Positions 2,279-11,847 of a DNA stretch of 26,358 bases are shown here, piece by piece. This stretch comes from a virus. Within the stretch, counting starts at the first letter, position 1. Each line of letters begins with the position of its first letter. Where the stretch lies: positions 1 through 26,358 of IMG/VR virus record IMGVR_UViG_3300035698_004885. One strand, 5' to 3'. The position numbers and the translations under genes are program-made. Under the pieces are notes generated by a model. It saw only the letters and a program-made list of their open reading frames with translations, was not told the origin of the DNA and did not search any database.

Positions 2279-3175
2279 ATGTACGGAAAACATCTTGCAA
2301 GTACCTATACTGGTTCAATGTTTGGTGCAGGGCTTCACGTTTTTGCAGTCTGGGGATATGTGATTGCAAATACGAAGTCATCGGCCAGGATCGAATTGAA
2401 CCCGAAAATGCTCACGTCAATCCTCGGAGGGACTGCCGAAGAAATCCAGTCGGCGATAAATTATCTCATGGTCCCTGACCCAGACTCGAGGTCGACTGAG
2501 TATGAAGGCCGAAGACTGGTCAAGGAGGGTCAGTTTCAATACTTTGTTGTCAACCATTTGTCATACCGTGGTATGCGAAACGAGGAAGATCGTAAAATCT
2601 ACAATAGAATCAAGAAGAAAGAACAGCGAGACCGAGATAAAATGTCAACTAATGTCAAGGACGATGTCAGCCGCGGTCAGCCGCGGTCAGCCCATAGAGA
2701 TAGAGATAGAGATAGAGATAGAGATAAAAAACCATCCGGACGTGTTCCGAAAACGGAACACGCCACGGGGGAAGATCCTCCGGGAAAGAGTCCACCTGTA
2801 CAGGCCAGTGACGACCCAGATTTTTGTCCTGCTATCGGCGGCCGGCCGGTGCCGGCGACGCCGGTGAAGAAGAAGCAGACCGGCGGTGGGTTCCCGGCCT
2901 ACGTGAAGCTCTACCGGGAGATGTACCAGAAGCGTTTCGGCCGGGCGTATATCCTGACCAACGTCAAGGAGGACATTGGCAGCCTGTCCTTCGTGAGCGC
3001 CCAGTTGGACAGGGATATGGCCAAGCTGGAGAAGCTGATCGCCAAGTATTTCGAGTCTGACTCAAAGCCGATCGTGGAGTCTGGGTGGAGTATCAGGCTG
3101 TTTAGGAGCAATTTTAACGCGATCGCAGCGAAGGTCTTCGGCGACACAAAGGCCGCGGAACCCTGGAGAATTTGA
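2279..3175 (+). CDS. Replication initiator / replisome organiser
   Basis: This 298-residue protein has the layout of phage replisome organisers. About residues 1-120 form an N-terminal winged-helix-like DNA-binding region (FAVWGYVIANTK, then ELNPKMLTSILGGTAEEIQSAI and a segment ending VVNHLSYRGMRN) followed by a very basic helix (IYNRIKKKEQRDRDK). A low-complexity linker includes five Arg-Asp repeats (140-149) and a Pro-rich stretch; a helical C-terminal domain (about 200-298) would contact the helicase. The linker DNA carries repeats matching the array upstream, as in lambda O, whose origin lies inside the gene. AGGAG at 2269-2273 sets the start. The stop overlaps the helicase start (TGATG). 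No homologue search was possible, so the family name is by architecture and context. Confidence 0.75.
   Translation: MYGKHLASTYTGSMFGAGLHVFAVWGYVIANTKSSARIELNPKMLTSILGGTAEEIQSAINYLMVPDPDSRSTEYEGRRLVKEGQFQYFVVNHLSYRGMRNEEDRKIYNRIKKKEQRDRDKMSTNVKDDVSRGQPRSAHRDRDRDRDRDKKPSGRVPKTEHATGEDPPGKSPPVQASDDPDFCPAIGGRPVPATPVKKKQTGGGFPAYVKLYREMYQKRFGRAYILTNVKEDIGSLSFVSAQLDRDMAKLEKLIAKYFESDSKPIVESGWSIRLFRSNFNAIAAKVFGDTKAAEPWRI
2643..2727 (+). repeat. Intragenic iteron-like repeats plus ATAGAG run, candidate origin
   Basis: Inside the initiator gene, TGTCA copies start at 2643, 2653 and 2665, followed by two perfect copies of CCGCGGTCAG (2671-2690). Bases 2644-2669 repeat 1898-1923 with one mismatch in 26, but in another codon phase. 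Immediately downstream are five tandem ATAGAG hexamers (2694-2723) running into ATAAAAA, a purine-rich, easily melted strand. Iterons next to such a tract are the classical layout of an initiator-dependent origin. The run also encodes an Arg-Asp repeat, so a protein-level reason cannot be excluded. Confidence 0.65.
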
Positions 3176-4407
3176 TGAAATACAGTCCACAGCAGCACGA
3201 GGCGGCTTCCAAGATTTACCTGGGGTGCCTCATGATGGACAAAGAGGCTCTCCTGAAGCGACGGGTGCCCCCAGAGGCGCTCTATGGGGGGTGGCAATAC
3301 CTCTACCTGGGGATGCTCAAGAACCTCGTGGACGGCAAGGGCATCCAGCCGGCTGATCTGTACATGGAGTTCGGGAAAGAGGAGTGGTGGCCTGGGGCAA
3401 AGATCGTCTCAGACCTGCCAAACAACGCAGTGTCAGGCTCGCGTGCGAAGGGCTACGCCGAGAAGTTGATCGAGATGTTCCAATTTCTCCAGGTAATGCG
3501 TTGGAATAAGCAGCTCGAGCTCATGATCGAGGGCGGCGAGGAGGAGATTCTCGCCAAGGCCGAGGCTGGGTTGCTCAAAATACGCTCGGAAGACGAGACT
3601 GTATGCGTAAAACTGTCCGAAGCCATCAGAATGTTGAACGAAAACCCCGGAAATCAGAAGATTTCAGTCGGGGAGTCCCGGTTTGACGCGAAATTGGCGC
3701 TGACCAGGGGCGGATTGCACGTTTTGGCAGCCAGGCCGAGCATGGGCAAGAGCAGTTTGGCGGTGTGGCTCTCGATTATGGCCGCCCGCGGCCACCCGGT
3801 GATGATATTCACCCTGGAAATGACCACATCGGAGCTCGTCAGGCGCATGTTGGGCATGGGGGTCGACATACAGAACCTCCCGATCTGGATAAACGACAAG
3901 GCGGGCATGACAATCGAGGAGATCATGACCAGGGCGCAGATAATGCGCGGTCAGTACGGCATTGACCTCGTGGTGGTCGACTACATGCAGCTTGTGAGGA
4001 CCTCGACCAAGCACCAGAACCGCGAAAGGGAGGTCGCCTACGTCTCTTCCTGCCTCAAGGAGCTGTCGAAGAAGATCGACGCACCTGTGCTGGCGCTATC
4101 TCAGCTCAACAGGGAGCTGGAGGGCCGATCGAACAAGCGGCCCACGCTCGCAAACCTCCGCGAGAGCGGTGCCATCGAGCAGGACGCAGACACCGTGACG
4201 TTTCTCTACCGCGAGGACTACTACGCGGACCAGGAGGGCAAGACGAGCCACGCGCCTGGGGTCGTGGAGGTGCTAATTGCCAAACAGCGCGGCGGGGCTA
4301 CCGGCGTGATGCTTGCGAACTGGGAACGTGCGGCGAATAAATGGCACAGTTGGCGGGACAAGGGCGAGCCCGAATCCCCGCAACGGGATATGGGGGCCTT
4401 ATTTTGA
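3175..4407 (+). CDS. DnaB-type replicative DNA helicase
   Basis: A 410-residue hexameric replicative helicase, which would unwind DNA 5'-3' at the fork. The short N-terminal helical domain (about 1-130) resembles DnaB. The RecA-like domain has Walker A ARPSMGKS (about 186-193), the following FTLEMT segment typical of DnaB, Walker B LVVVDYMQLV (Asp about 269), the ALSQLNRELE motif with its conserved Gln, and the C-terminal ESGAIEQDADTVTFLYR motif carrying the arginine-finger region. Length is slightly below the usual 430-470 because the N-domain is short. It begins at an ATG overlapping the initiator stop, so the two are coupled. No primase or helicase loader is seen here; host primase is probably used. 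Confidence 0.95.
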   Translation: MKYSPQQHEAASKIYLGCLMMDKEALLKRRVPPEALYGGWQYLYLGMLKNLVDGKGIQPADLYMEFGKEEWWPGAKIVSDLPNNAVSGSRAKGYAEKLIEMFQFLQVMRWNKQLELMIEGGEEEILAKAEAGLLKIRSEDETVCVKLSEAIRMLNENPGNQKISVGESRFDAKLALTRGGLHVLAARPSMGKSSLAVWLSIMAARGHPVMIFTLEMTTSELVRRMLGMGVDIQNLPIWINDKAGMTIEEIMTRAQIMRGQYGIDLVVVDYMQLVRTSTKHQNREREVAYVSSCLKELSKKIDAPVLALSQLNRELEGRSNKRPTLANLRESGAIEQDADTVTFLYREDYYADQEGKTSHAPGVVEVLIAKQRGGATGVMLANWERAANKWHSWRDKGEPESPQRDMGALF

Positions 4408-4682
4408 GCGACGAAGTTTTCATCCCGAAGATGCACACCAGGAAGGGCTACGAGAAGTCTGTGCATGTCCCGTGCCGCATAAGGCAGGCGGTGGCCATGG
4501 CGCAGGAGGTCCTCGGGGCCAAGGTCGTGGGTAGGAAGAAGGTCTGGCCGTTTCCGTTCAAGATGACTGACGCCGCGATCTCGTGTATAGAGACGACCTA
4601 CAGTGTTTCACGTGAAACAGCGGAGAAGGCTGCGCGCATGTGTGAAGCGGTGGACAAGGAGATGGTGGATGCCAATCGATAA
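4404..4682 (+). CDS. Small HTH-like protein between helicase and terminase
   Basis: The frame is open from further upstream, but the helicase stop at 4405-4407 and a G-rich site (TGGGGG) favour a TTG start at 4404; an ATG at 4431 is the alternative. The 92-residue product is basic early (MHTRKGYEKSVHVPCRIRQA) and ends with SVSRETAEKAARM, which resembles the recognition half of a helix-turn-helix. It may be a small regulator or DNA-packaging accessory. The parS-like 16-mer lies inside the SVSRET codons. Its last 14 bases overlap the next gene. Family not recognised. Confidence 0.55.
   Translation: MSDEVFIPKMHTRKGYEKSVHVPCRIRQAVAMAQEVLGAKVVGRKKVWPFPFKMTDAAISCIETTYSVSRETAEKAARMCEAVDKEMVDANR
4604..4619. 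other. parS: Perfect parS (ParB-binding) palindrome
   Basis: The sequence TGTTTCACGTGAAACA is a perfect 16-base palindrome and identical to the consensus of bacterial chromosomal parS sites, which bind ParB/Spo0J and nucleate SMC loading and origin segregation. It lies in the small gene before the terminase, 50 bases upstream of the small-terminase start. No parA or parB is in this window, so any binding would use a host (or distant phage) ParB. The bases also encode Val-Ser-Arg-Glu-Thr in a possible HTH, so coincidence with coding is the main alternative. Confidence 0.8.
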
Positions 4683-5142
4683 GAGGTGGGGGCCGTTTAT
4701 CGAACAGTTGGAGGCGCTCGAATTCGATCCAGATGAGTGGATTGACGTATTCAAGGCACTCGTTGAGTCGAAAGTGAATCCTGGGGATATCGAAAATCCA
4801 AAACAGGCAGCCAAGAAGTTGTCATCGCTGATGGTGCTCGAGCTCACAAGGCTTGCCACAACCGCCAGGTCTGAGCAGGTTCGACGTCATGCGGCCACGG
4901 AGCTTGCCCACATGGGAGGGGCGCGGCCGCCGAAACAGAAGGATGACGATTTTTCTGACATGACCGAGGAGGAATTAGATGCCCGTATCGGCAGCTACAT
5001 CGAGGACGAGGCGAGCAAGAAAACTAAGCATCGAGCAAAAAAGAGAGCTCGTACGACTGATCGTCACGAAGGAGAGGACCTCCTTACAGCAGCGGATCAA
5101 GAATTACAAATCTCTGAGGGGTGCCCAGACCCAATTCCATAG
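4669..5142 (+). CDS. Probable terminase small subunit
   Basis: A 157-residue protein directly upstream of the large terminase, where the small, DNA-recognising subunit is expected. It starts at an ATG behind AAGGAG (4656-4661), inside the end of the previous gene. Residues 1-90 are helical (WIDVFKALVES, LMVLELTRLATTARSEQVRR), followed by an acidic DDDFSDMTEEELDARI motif often seen near the end of phage small-terminase-like proteins, then a very basic tail (KKTKHRAKKRARTTDR). It overlaps the large terminase by 164 bases, far more than other gene pairs here. The longer frame from 4603 is less likely because its extra residues lie over the parS-like site and the previous gene. Assignment rests on position and motif. 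Confidence 0.6.
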   Translation: MPIDKRWGPFIEQLEALEFDPDEWIDVFKALVESKVNPGDIENPKQAAKKLSSLMVLELTRLATTARSEQVRRHAATELAHMGGARPPKQKDDDFSDMTEEELDARIGSYIEDEASKKTKHRAKKRARTTDRHEGEDLLTAADQELQISEGCPDPIP

Positions 5143-6382
5143 GGGCCAGAAGCGCAATCGCTATCTTTCCGGGGGCAACCAGTCAGGCAAAACGACAGCC
5201 AACATAATCGAGTGTATCTGGCATTCCCTGGGCACTCACCCGCACCGGAAGGTACGTGTCCCGAACGTCGGGAGGATCGTCACCGGGTCCAACCTCGAGG
5301 ACGGTATCGGGCAAACCCTGTGGCCGAAGTTCCTCGAGTGGATCCCCCAGGGCAGTGTCAAGGACGTCAAGTATTTCTCGGCCGGTGTTGTCCAGCGCAT
5401 CGACTGGGTCAACGGATCCCGCATCCACTTCATGTCGGCGCAGCAGAAGGATGCGGTCTTCGAGTCTGCTACCCTCGACTGGGCGGCCTTCGACGAACCG
5501 CTGAGAAGGGCCATCTACGACGCCACCCGCCGCGGACTGATAAAGTCCAGGGGTCCGCTGTGGTGGACGTTCACACCCCTTACAGAGCCCTGGATGTACA
5601 CGGACCTCATCAACCCGGCACTCTCCGGCGACCCAGGGGCCGATGTCTATCTCCTCAATACATGGGCCAATGCTGAGTCCAAGGGGGGGTATCTACCCGA
5701 TGAATCGATCAAGGAATTTGCTGATGAGCTCTCGGAAATCGACGAAGAGGTTCGTATCTATGGGCGGCCCAAGTTCCTTACGGGGCGCATATATCCAGGG
5801 TTTGACAGGGACAAGGATGTTCTCGATACTTACGAGTATTCTATCGCGTGGCCGATGTGGGAAGGGGTCGATCCTCACCTTGCCAAGCCCCATGCCTGGA
5901 TGCAGGTCGTCATAACCCCGGACAACGATATCGTGATTGTCGATGAGATATACTCGAAGATGGACATCCATGCTCTGGGCGACGAGATCAACGCCCGGAG
6001 ACTGACTGATACCGGCGTCAGAAAGAACGTGGTGGATATGGTGCTTGACACGCCGGGGAAGATACTGGACTGGGGTAGGGAGATTTCGCCTTATACGATC
6101 TTTGCGAAGAAGGGTATTCATTGCACGGTGCCTCCGAAAGTGAATCGCAAGGAGGATTGGGTTATGGCGATAGCCCACATGCTCCGTGAGGGGAAGATCA
6201 AAGTCATGGCGCATTGCACGCGAACGATCACGGAACTTGAGAATTACCGCAAAGACTTGAAGGGCAATATCGTTAAAGATTTTGATGACATGATGGATAT
6301 TTTGGGGTATATCGTTACGATGAATCCAAAATTCCAATATCGACCACGCATCATTTCCTACCGGAGGGATGATGATTCTTGA
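4979..6382 (+). CDS. terL: Terminase large subunit (packaging ATPase/nuclease)
   Basis: A 467-residue motor that cuts concatemeric DNA and pumps it through the portal. After a helical basic N-terminus, the ATPase shows Walker A SGGNQSGKTT (64-73) and Walker B LDWAAFDEP (166-174, catalytic Asp-Glu). FTPL follows as coupling motif. The nuclease half has an Asp in GVDPHLAKPHAW, VDMVLDTPG, and DDMMDILGY near the C-terminus, consistent with the RNase H-fold metal site. The ATG follows GAGGAGG at about 4965-4971 with good spacing, which supports a true 164-base overlap with the small subunit. The end overlaps the portal by 14 bases. Confidence 0.93.
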   Translation: MPVSAATSRTRRARKLSIEQKRELVRLIVTKERTSLQQRIKNYKSLRGAQTQFHRGQKRNRYLSGGNQSGKTTANIIECIWHSLGTHPHRKVRVPNVGRIVTGSNLEDGIGQTLWPKFLEWIPQGSVKDVKYFSAGVVQRIDWVNGSRIHFMSAQQKDAVFESATLDWAAFDEPLRRAIYDATRRGLIKSRGPLWWTFTPLTEPWMYTDLINPALSGDPGADVYLLNTWANAESKGGYLPDESIKEFADELSEIDEEVRIYGRPKFLTGRIYPGFDRDKDVLDTYEYSIAWPMWEGVDPHLAKPHAWMQVVITPDNDIVIVDEIYSKMDIHALGDEINARRLTDTGVRKNVVDMVLDTPGKILDWGREISPYTIFAKKGIHCTVPPKVNRKEDWVMAIAHMLREGKIKVMAHCTRTITELENYRKDLKGNIVKDFDDMMDILGYIVTMNPKFQYRPRIISYRRDDDS

Positions 6383-8505
6383 TAAACGTCCCGATGTAAA
6401 AGCCGACCCCGAAAAAATGGTAAAATATGTGCTTCATCGTTTCAGTAATCTGAAGCTGATGAAGCAGCGATGGACATCGCGCAGGCAGCGGTTCCTCGAT
6501 ACCTATGAGAATTTCCTGAGGCCGAAATCGGATCTTGGGTACGAAAGCGTTGCCAAGGTTCGCGTGCAGGTCACGGAGTGGATGCGACAGACGATCCACA
6601 GTTATTTGTTGCATGCGATCTTTGGGATGGATCCTCCGTTTGCTGCGGTGCCTGAGGGCGACTCGGACAAGGCCCTTGTCGAAACCGTCGAGAAGACCAT
6701 GAAGTGGACGATCGACAAGTACGCAAATTATGGTGCTGGTATCCGTGAGGCTGCTGATGACTGGGTTGACGATCTCGTGAGCGTGGGTTTCGGGATCATG
6801 AAGTTGAGATGGGATGTTGTCGAGAGGTACACCAAGCGACTTGATGTGCAGGCGGATCTCGCCGAGCTCCGAAAGATCGTCAAAGACAAGCAGAAGCTCG
6901 AAGCGTACGCGCAGGACAAGATGGAGGAAGGTATCTTTACGGTGTTTGACGGTCCCGTTCTCGAGCCTGTGGACGTTGACGATATCTATTTCCCGGCCAG
7001 GTCTATCTTTCCCACAGATATCAACCGATATTCAATAGTCATCCACAGGCTTCGCAAGGATGCGAATTGGATTAAGCAACGTGTGGCCGTGGGGACGTTC
7101 GACCCAAAGGCGGCCGAGCTGGTGTTGAGCCGTTCGGAAGATGGGTGGGCTCTCGGCGACAAGGGGACTGAGACAAAGGACCAGCGGGATAAGTACGCAG
7201 GCACGGAGACTCAGTGGCATGGGCCCAAAGGGTATGAGGTGATCGAAGCATATTTTGATTATCCGAGCGAGCTTGACCCCAAGGACGGGGGGCACGAAAG
7301 TGGCAATGATAACGAGACACCGCGTGGCAAAATGGGGATCACGGAAAGATTGGTGGCGACGATCCACCCTGAGTCTAAACAGCTCCTCTCGGTCACGTAC
7401 GTTGATCTCGTCAACCCTACTGGAAATTTCCCCTTCTACAAGATCGATTTCCACAAGCGGCGTGGCCGCACCCACTCGCGGGGGCTCCCAGAGACAGTCT
7501 ACCAGGTTCAAAAGGAAGCGGATATCCTTCACAACATAGCTCTCGATTTCGGCATCTTGAATGCGATGCCGTTTGGTTTGTACAAGCCCATGGCAGGCGC
7601 AACGACTGACGTGATTAAGCTCAAGCCGGGGATATTGTTGCCGGCAACAGATCCGTCAACAGACATGGCATTCCCCTATCGCCCGCAGACGCAGAACTGG
7701 CCTACACAGATGGAGCACCAGGCGATTCAATATGCAGCGAAGTCATCGTTCGTGAATGAGCTGATGATGGGGCAGATGCCGTCCCCTGTCGGTGGTGCGA
7801 GAAGTACGTCTGGCATGAATACACTTCTTGGCCAAATCGGAATCAACCACGAGAAACTCCTGACACGTGTCACCGGAGTTTATTCGAGGATGCTTGTGGA
7901 TCTCTATGCGATGCTCCAGGTCAGGATGCCTGAGGGCGTGAAGACGCGGCTTGGATCCGGCATATCGGGCCCAGGGAAGACATCACGCGCCGATCTCGGC
8001 GGCGTAATGAATTTCAAGCCAACCGCCAACGCAATGAACGTCAATAAACAGTTTGATGTGGAGAATGCCATGCTCTACGTCAATCTCCTGATGAGTCGTC
8101 CAGCGATGGAGACTGGCATTGTGTCCCCTGGGAATATGTACAACATCCTCCTGAATGTTCTCAAGAAGCGTGGGGAGGTAGACCCGAACATGTTTATCAC
8201 TCGCCCGCAAGATGCCGACCAACCGCTGTCGATAAAGGGTGAGCTTGATTCGATCATGCAGGGCGAAATGCCCAGGGTGGCAATCAACGACAGGCACCAA
8301 GACAAGATCGATGCGATAGAAGAGTTCATCGCCAGCGACAAATTCAAGACGACAATGGCTGAGGGGCAAGTATCGCCGGCGTGGCAGATAATCTACAGAC
8401 AACTTATCAAGGCGCATAAGGCGATGGATGAGATGCTGAAGCGTTCCGAGCAGATGGCAAACTACGCGGGTACTCAGGCCCCGATGCAGGAAAAGGGAGG
8501 ATCGT

Positions 8506-8946
<441 letters not shown>

Positions 8947-10387: not shown

Positions 10388-10891
10388 ATGGCGAACAAAG
10401 ACTGGCCGCATGGGTTTCTTCCGGTAAATAACTTCAATGGTAGGATTCCTATCATGGAAGTGGATCTTGCCGCGGCGAATACGATCATAGGCATCGGTGA
10501 TCCGGTGATAGCAACCAATGCCGGTGTTGTCGATCGCTGTTCGACGACAGATACCCTGATCTATGGTGTCGCCGCCGAGCCGAAAGCCGCATCGAGCGGT
10601 GGGAAAATTTCAATATGGGCGGATCCGAACATCCTCTATGAGGCGCAGGGAGATGAAACTGAGATTGCTGCAATCACGAATCTCAACTTGAACTACGAAG
10701 TCGTGATCGGCAATGCAGTGAATGGACGTTCGATCGCAGAGATCGACACCAGCTCTGGTGCCAACACAGCAACCTTGCCGTTTAAGGTTGTCGGGTTATA
10801 CAAGGACCCGCGAAACGCATACGGTGAGTTTGTTCGCGTCCTTTGCTTCATCAATGCTGCCTTCCTGGGCAAGGATAAGGCGGGCGTCTAA
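10388..10891 (+). CDS. Putative head decoration/stabilisation protein
   Basis: A 167-residue, beta-rich protein just before the major capsid protein, with AAGGAGG as strong binding site. The pattern IIGIGDPVIATNAGVVDRC, then LIYGVAAEPKAASSGGKISIWADPNILYEAQGD resembles small capsid-decoration proteins that sit on head surfaces, which typically read as a string of short beta strands with a GDPV-type turn. Strong translation signals fit a protein made in capsid-like amounts. The exact family is uncertain. Confidence 0.6.
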   Translation: MANKDWPHGFLPVNNFNGRIPIMEVDLAAANTIIGIGDPVIATNAGVVDRCSTTDTLIYGVAAEPKAASSGGKISIWADPNILYEAQGDETEIAAITNLNLNYEVVIGNAVNGRSIAEIDTSSGANTATLPFKVVGLYKDPRNAYGEFVRVLCFINAAFLGKDKAGV

Positions 10892-10920: not shown

Positions 10921-11847
10921 ATGCCTATCGAAATGAGAACCAGTTACGACAAGCTGTTTTTCGAGGATCGCATGCCTGCTCTCGAGGAGATTAGCTACGC
11001 AGAGTGGGAGAAGCATCCCGACCTGATCGAGAAGATGTACAACACGGACACCATGGATCAGGAAATCAAGCAGCAGCTCACGATGGGCGAGATACCCCCG
11101 GCGCAGCAGGTTGCCGAGGGTGCAGACGTTCCCTACGTAGAGCTCCTCCAGGGGTACAACAAGACCTACACGGCCTTGACGTACAAGCTGGGCATCCAGT
11201 GTTCGGAAGAGCTTTACGAGGACGATCGTCAGGACCTCGTGAATAAATTCCACAGGGGTCTGGCGCGAGGTCACTACCAGACGCGACAGATCATCGGTGC
11301 CGGGGTCTATAACGACTCCTTCACCAGCGCAGTGGGGCCCGACGGCAAGGAACTGGTGGCGACCGATCATCCGCTGGTCAATGGCGGTACGGGCTCAAAC
11401 GAGCTTGAGGTCCCGACAGCCTTCGGCGTTGCCGGCCTGGAGGCCATCATCCAGCTCTTCAGTGAGATGGTCGACGAGCAGGGTCTCCCGGTCCTGAATA
11501 CCCCGAGGCTTGTGATTATCCCCCCGAAGCTCCAGTTCACGGCGAAAAGGATAATCGACAGCCCAGGGAAGGCAGACGAAGCGAACCTGGCGATCAACGC
11601 CTTCAACATGTACGACCTGACCTTCATGTGGAATCCGTACCTCTCGGCGGCCCAGGGCGGCTCCGATACGGCCTACTGGGTCATCGGTGACACCGCGGAT
11701 CTGGACATCATGTGGTACGATCGCGTGTCTTTCTCGCTCGAGGTCGGGAAGGACTTCGATTCAGGCGGCACGAAGACGAAGACCCGTCAGCGTTTCGTCA
11801 CTGGCTGGCATGACTGGAGAAATATCGGCGGAACAGCCGGCGCATAG
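10921..11847 (+). CDS. Major capsid protein (HK97-fold type)
   Basis: A 308-residue protein with the strongest translation signal of the region (AAGGAGGAAAG). The sequence follows the pattern of Mu-type HK97-fold capsid proteins: an N-terminal arm with YNTDTMDQEIKQQLT, GIQCSEELYEDD in the spine-helix region, the LVATDHPLVNGG loop, QGLPVLNTPRLVIIPPKLQFTAKRI in the A-domain, and a C-terminal beta segment (MWYDRVSFSLEVGKDFDSGG, RQRFVTGWHDWRN). There is no protease-processed propeptide or delta domain, consistent with a separate scaffold gene. A terminator follows immediately. Confidence 0.88.
   Translation: MPIEMRTSYDKLFFEDRMPALEEISYAEWEKHPDLIEKMYNTDTMDQEIKQQLTMGEIPPAQQVAEGADVPYVELLQGYNKTYTALTYKLGIQCSEELYEDDRQDLVNKFHRGLARGHYQTRQIIGAGVYNDSFTSAVGPDGKELVATDHPLVNGGTGSNELEVPTAFGVAGLEAIIQLFSEMVDEQGLPVLNTPRLVIIPPKLQFTAKRIIDSPGKADEANLAINAFNMYDLTFMWNPYLSAAQGGSDTAYWVIGDTADLDIMWYDRVSFSLEVGKDFDSGGTKTKTRQRFVTGWHDWRNIGGTAGA

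Follow-up and report, generated by a model that had tools for sequence, protein, structure and literature searches.

Bacterial chromosomes are segregated and folded mainly by the ParB-parS-SMC system, and the chromosomal parS sites of bacteria, of the Spo0J/ParB type, are said to have been treated by Livny et al. in 2007. To our knowledge, phage use of host ParB-parS is known in detail only for phi29, and no survey of parS across phages was found in a literature search that covered few subscription papers. In the plasmid-prophage partition systems, such as P1 and the actinobacteriophage ParABS, a centromere-like site lies on phage DNA, as it does here; however, these phages encode their own ParA and ParB with their own site, whereas the window, meaning the whole stretch of DNA that was analysed (26,358 bases), has no match to either protein. 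Regarding the host system, it is established that parS is where ParB is loaded as a CTP clamp, from where it slides over nearby DNA and recruits ParA and SMC (PMC8494293, PMC8299390). For phi29, the host Spo0J (ParB) is reported in the entrapment of the phage genome in the spore, in an excerpt of PMC9437464 that quotes Meijer et al. 2005. The orphan kind of parS is thus already known from phi29, and the breadth of the class is the more interesting result. If phages routinely carry the loading site of this machinery, host chromosome organisation would be a common viral resource, and the 16-mer or its VSRET codon string would serve as a simple genomic marker for phages dependent on host segregation.

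The window carries TGTTTCACGTGAAACA at positions 4604-4619, an exact match to the chromosomal parS consensus at all 16 positions. It is a 16-bp palindrome fitting TGTTNCACGTGNAACA exactly, the only perfect palindrome of this length in the window, and the perfect, fully palindromic parS described by the initial annotation is thereby confirmed. The search for further copies that it had proposed was run over the whole window and revealed no second site at up to 3 mismatches, where dinucleotide shuffles gave a mean of 0.07 matches; the site is therefore single, with no cluster around it. While its 16-bp consensus is identical to that of chromosomal parS, the site differs from it in lying on a phage, alone, with neither parAB nearby nor a chromosome origin. 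The absence of parA and parB, also noted earlier, agrees with a profile search in which ParB_N (PF02195) and the ParA-type AAA_31 (PF13614) had no match at E<=1 in this 26-kb linear record, and so the parA and parB genes of a phage-encoded ParABS were not found within the fragment. The window is the entire IMG/VR virus record and is classed as linear, so it is probably a fragment of the genome.

Although it was first described as lying 50 bases before the small terminase gene, and the gap is right (52 bases from the end of parS to the ATG at 4672), the site is coding rather than intergenic. It is part of a 92-codon gene with no assigned family (4404-4682, plus strand, as are the other window genes described here), whose TTG start overlaps the stop codon of a DnaB-type replicative helicase (3172-4407; Pfam DnaB_C, 9.7e-64; PHROG 19, 1.8e-70). 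In this frame the parS codons GTT TCA CGT GAA ACA encode VSRET, residues 68-72, in agreement with the Val-Ser-Arg-Glu-Thr given initially. The codon-position G+C of the gene (0.54/0.42/0.75) is like that of confident genes, such as the helicase (0.58/0.39/0.79), and the reading frame is a genuine gene. Its product had no family above cut-off in Pfam or PHROG. A single-sequence structure model of the 92-residue protein has low confidence (mean pLDDT 63), with helices at 54-65 and 70-91, and a fold search with this model gave no significant match; by the model, VSRET may sit at a helix-turn-helix-like turn between the two helices, with the VS at the turn. When this protein, the large terminase and the portal were compared with IMG/VR, isolate phages and bacterial genomes, no close relatives were found, and no phage sequence matched the window in a near-DNA search either.

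Downstream, the probable small terminase subunit (4672-5142) had no Pfam or PHROG family match, and its name therefore rests on synteny; an AAGGAG ribosome-binding site lies 7 bases before the ATG at 4672. It is followed by the large terminase subunit (4979-6382; Pfam Terminase_6N, 5.5e-6; PHROG 2, 4.9e-19; tblastn to annotated large terminases), the portal or head-tail connector protein (6369-8564; Pfam SU10_portal, 4.6e-10; PHROG 332, 1.3e-19) and the major capsid protein (10921-11847; Pfam Phage_capsid_4, 5.3e-9; tblastn to phage capsid proteins at ~21-33% identity). As adjacent genes overlap, there is no intergenic room in the helicase-terminase block, and because the overlapping genes leave no gap, the site has probably been fitted into coding DNA. 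The small-terminase frame is also open upstream through parS (4603-4671), with a GTG at 4603 and the reading MFHVKQ..., and in other phages there are reading frames whose first codon overlaps parS (MFHVKH), so parS may have a double use as a start region. In the window, the GTG at 4603, inside parS, was dropped as the small-terminase start in favour of the ATG at 4672 with its AAGGAG.

Counts against control words show a strong excess of perfect parS in viral sequence, far beyond chance. At least 120 parS-bearing stretches were found in the 2.9 million viral contigs of IMG/VR, and a 1-in-7 subsample defined by flanking bases also contained at least 120; since 21 of the 146 sites of the first scan satisfy this flanking-base restriction, the IMG/VR total is at least about 890 perfect parS. 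Two control palindromes matched to parS in dinucleotide composition gave 5 and 11 stretches, and a single-base variant that leaves VSRET encoded on either strand gave 94, or ~47 per word. The chance figure given earlier, of about 6 in a million windows, presupposes uniform base use and takes no account of the number of windows read; the control words supply an empirical chance rate, 5-47 occurrences per word in 2.9 million viral contigs. Among phage records of the isolate collection, 213 matched a doubled parS query versus 0 for a doubled control. In 80 capsid-related contigs chosen regardless of parS (746 kb), there was one exact site and one with 1 mismatch, compared to a mean of 0.00 exact matches for 200 control palindromes over the same 746 kb; an exact site in one of 80 contigs indicates a sporadic trait. 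Bacterial DNA may account for part of the signal in IMG/VR and in the isolate records, and some 'Listeria phage LM' isolate records, which look like host fragments, were left out of the argument. Against bacterial contamination as the general source of the parS hits, ParB_N is missing from 48 of 50 parS-bearing records and a large terminase is recognisable in 17 of the 44 records with gene-embedded parS.

The leading alternative, also raised by the initial annotation, is a codon-level coincidence, where the protein needs VSRET, for example where a recognition helix begins, and parS is spelt by its codons only by accident. Helix-turn-helix proteins often contain this pentapeptide, hence a protein-level constraint is possible, and the low-confidence model, with its helices at 54-65 and 70-91, puts the VS at the turn. 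In addition, the synonymous control demonstrates that VSRET with similar codons arises by chance ~20 times per word in IMG/VR. Against it, this exact spelling given VSRET has a probability of only 2.9e-4 under the codon usage of the window, or 7.8e-5 with the preceding T. Reading frames of at least 90 residues have parS in the VSRET frame at 51 of the 146 first-scan sites and at 67 of the 128 subsample sites listed, so that this class totals at least about 310-465, versus 40 for the two-word synonymous control, which is at least about 15-fold above the chance level. From this excess, a random member of the class would be a chance occurrence in ~4-7% of cases; the estimate was raised to ~15% because of the helix-turn-helix context, and coincidence, put at ~5-15%, is considered unlikely here.

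Conservation at the DNA level in other phages also bears on the nature of gene-embedded parS. In phi29, four TGTTTCACGTGGAACA parS-type sites are found at 10445, 15903, 17243 and 18760, three of them within annotated genes (10, 15 and 17) and one just past the terminase gene. Relatives of the phi29 family were picked by homology of genes 10-12 and not by parS, and two of the phi29 sites are kept at the DNA level across three genera (L131, which is phi29, L339, L340 and L341). The parS of the portal gene (TGTTTCACGTGGAACA) is identical at 16 of 16 positions in phi29, PZA, B103, Goe1 and Chedec 11, while the copy of the endolysin gene keeps TGTTTCACGTG(A/G)AACA, even across the residue change VSRGT/VSRET. 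Outside the site, genera of the family share the codon at only ~43-55% of the positions where the residue is unchanged, and the variants found in the family stay within the known parS degeneracy TGTTNCACGTGNAACA. Similar pairs occur elsewhere: in metagenomic phages, a primase/helicase-like gene (L092/L109) keeps the VSRET codons at 74% amino acid identity and 51% codon identity, and a transglycosylase/tail-like gene (L055/L084) keeps them where the neighbouring sequence has diverged; and in Microbacterium phages of two genera parS persists in a linker, with flanks that can no longer be aligned. These three cases are weaker evidence than the phi29 family, because they were found by parS. Judged from these alignments, gene-embedded parS is conserved at the DNA level in other phages. 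Phi29 and its relatives (Salasvirus, Beecentumtrevirus and Bahkauvirus) resemble the window in having parS mostly inside genes and in the same frame (VSRGT/VSRET), and B103, Goe1 and Chedec 11 also carry the perfect 16-mer, as the window does. However, the phi29 kind carries its sites in multiple copies and infects a sporulating host that is known, whereas the window has one site, and its phage is unrelated to phi29, with a different terminase and portal.

A second group of viruses, a marine-type clade, has a perfect parS between genes, 17-135 bases upstream of the large terminase gene, in surroundings that have diverged (L027:4677-4692, L093:7174-7189, L097:334-349 and L119:5928-5943). Its members (L019, L027, L029, L042, L083, L093, L097, L101, L119, L120 and others) were chosen by parS, and most of their large terminases share 82-92% identity, a few outliers falling near 60-65%. 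Two more relatives, L070 and L110, have parS downstream of the terminase match. No parS was found before the terminase in large-terminase relatives at ~49-61% identity from the capsid-survey set, nor in four isolate relatives, so the clade is a subset found through its parS. The clade is like the window in having a perfect parS beside terminase genes and no ParB, in the case of the window none within the 26-kb fragment, and the capsid protein of one member (L083) is a distant relative of that of the window (28%). In contrast, its site is intergenic, compared to one inside a gene in the window, and blastp detected no similarity between its large terminase and that of the window.

Taken as a whole, the site of the window is real and is read as an orphan parS, probably functional, that would recruit host ParB, a reading to which we assign a probability of roughly 0.7, with the binding and the benefit inferred. 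The host ParB recruitment put forward by the initial annotation is partly supported, at the level of the class, by the enrichment, the usual lack of ParB, the conservation in the phi29 family and the published link to Spo0J; for the window phage itself, it may hold by way of its class. Since 48 of the 50 records lack ParB and phi29 is reported to use Spo0J, recruitment of the host protein is the simplest mechanism. Host chromosomal ParB would bind the orphan parS on phage DNA, its CTP clamps would load there and slide onto the neighbouring phage DNA, and the loaded ParB could then bring ParA and/or SMC. The phage genome would thus be organised, positioned or segregated like the origin DNA of the host, including in slow or dormant infections. 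The phage may gain by having its DNA positioned, segregated when infection is slow, folded ahead of packaging or disguised as that of the host, or by disturbing the host. In broader terms, we lean towards the view that orphan chromosomal parS is a widespread viral trait of many unrelated lineages, often concealed as a tolerated VSRET linker and recruiting host ParB/SMC in lytic or dormant infection, of which the window phage would be one case.

A different purpose is also conceivable, namely an attack on the host in which the site soaks up its ParB or upsets its chromosome segregation and does not serve the phage DNA. This would follow from ParB binding and a high phage copy number during replication, and nothing in the sequence speaks against it; however, at low copy number a single site in each genome would soak up little ParB, and phi29, according to PMC9437464, uses Spo0J to get its own genome into the spore. 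Titration is considered quite improbable. Least probable of all is that the palindrome is bound by another protein, either from the phage (a regulator or terminase factor) or from the host (one that recognises CACGTG), and has come to look like parS by convergence. The location 52 bases ahead of the small-terminase-like gene, and that of parS before the large terminase in the marine-type clade, would be suitable for a packaging signal or a regulator, but this reading is opposed by the fit of all 16 bases to parS, by the rarity of CACGTG palindromes with permuted outer bases (the 5 and 11 above), by the agreement of the phi29-family variants with the known degeneracy and by the sites in polymerase, primase, tail and endolysin genes elsewhere, not only at terminases.

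Besides the single orphan sites, several records carry more than one. Two related contigs have five perfect parS each within ~0.8-0.9 kb (L017:2657-3444 and L044:10535-11462), resembling a small centromere array, and the L044 record has no ParB. The 'bajarodino' viruses of ~6 kb (isolate records PQ006097, PQ006135 and PQ006099) have 10-14 parS places, corresponding to ~5-7 sites if both strands were counted, and in one of them a parS site lies under an annotated Zot gene. Ruegeria phage DSS3P8 (KT870145) has 6 parS places, or ~3 sites. Finally, in the L052 record (G054:29137-30840), the large terminase gene of a parS-bearing virus contains six in-frame TGA codons, which suggests TGA recoding.
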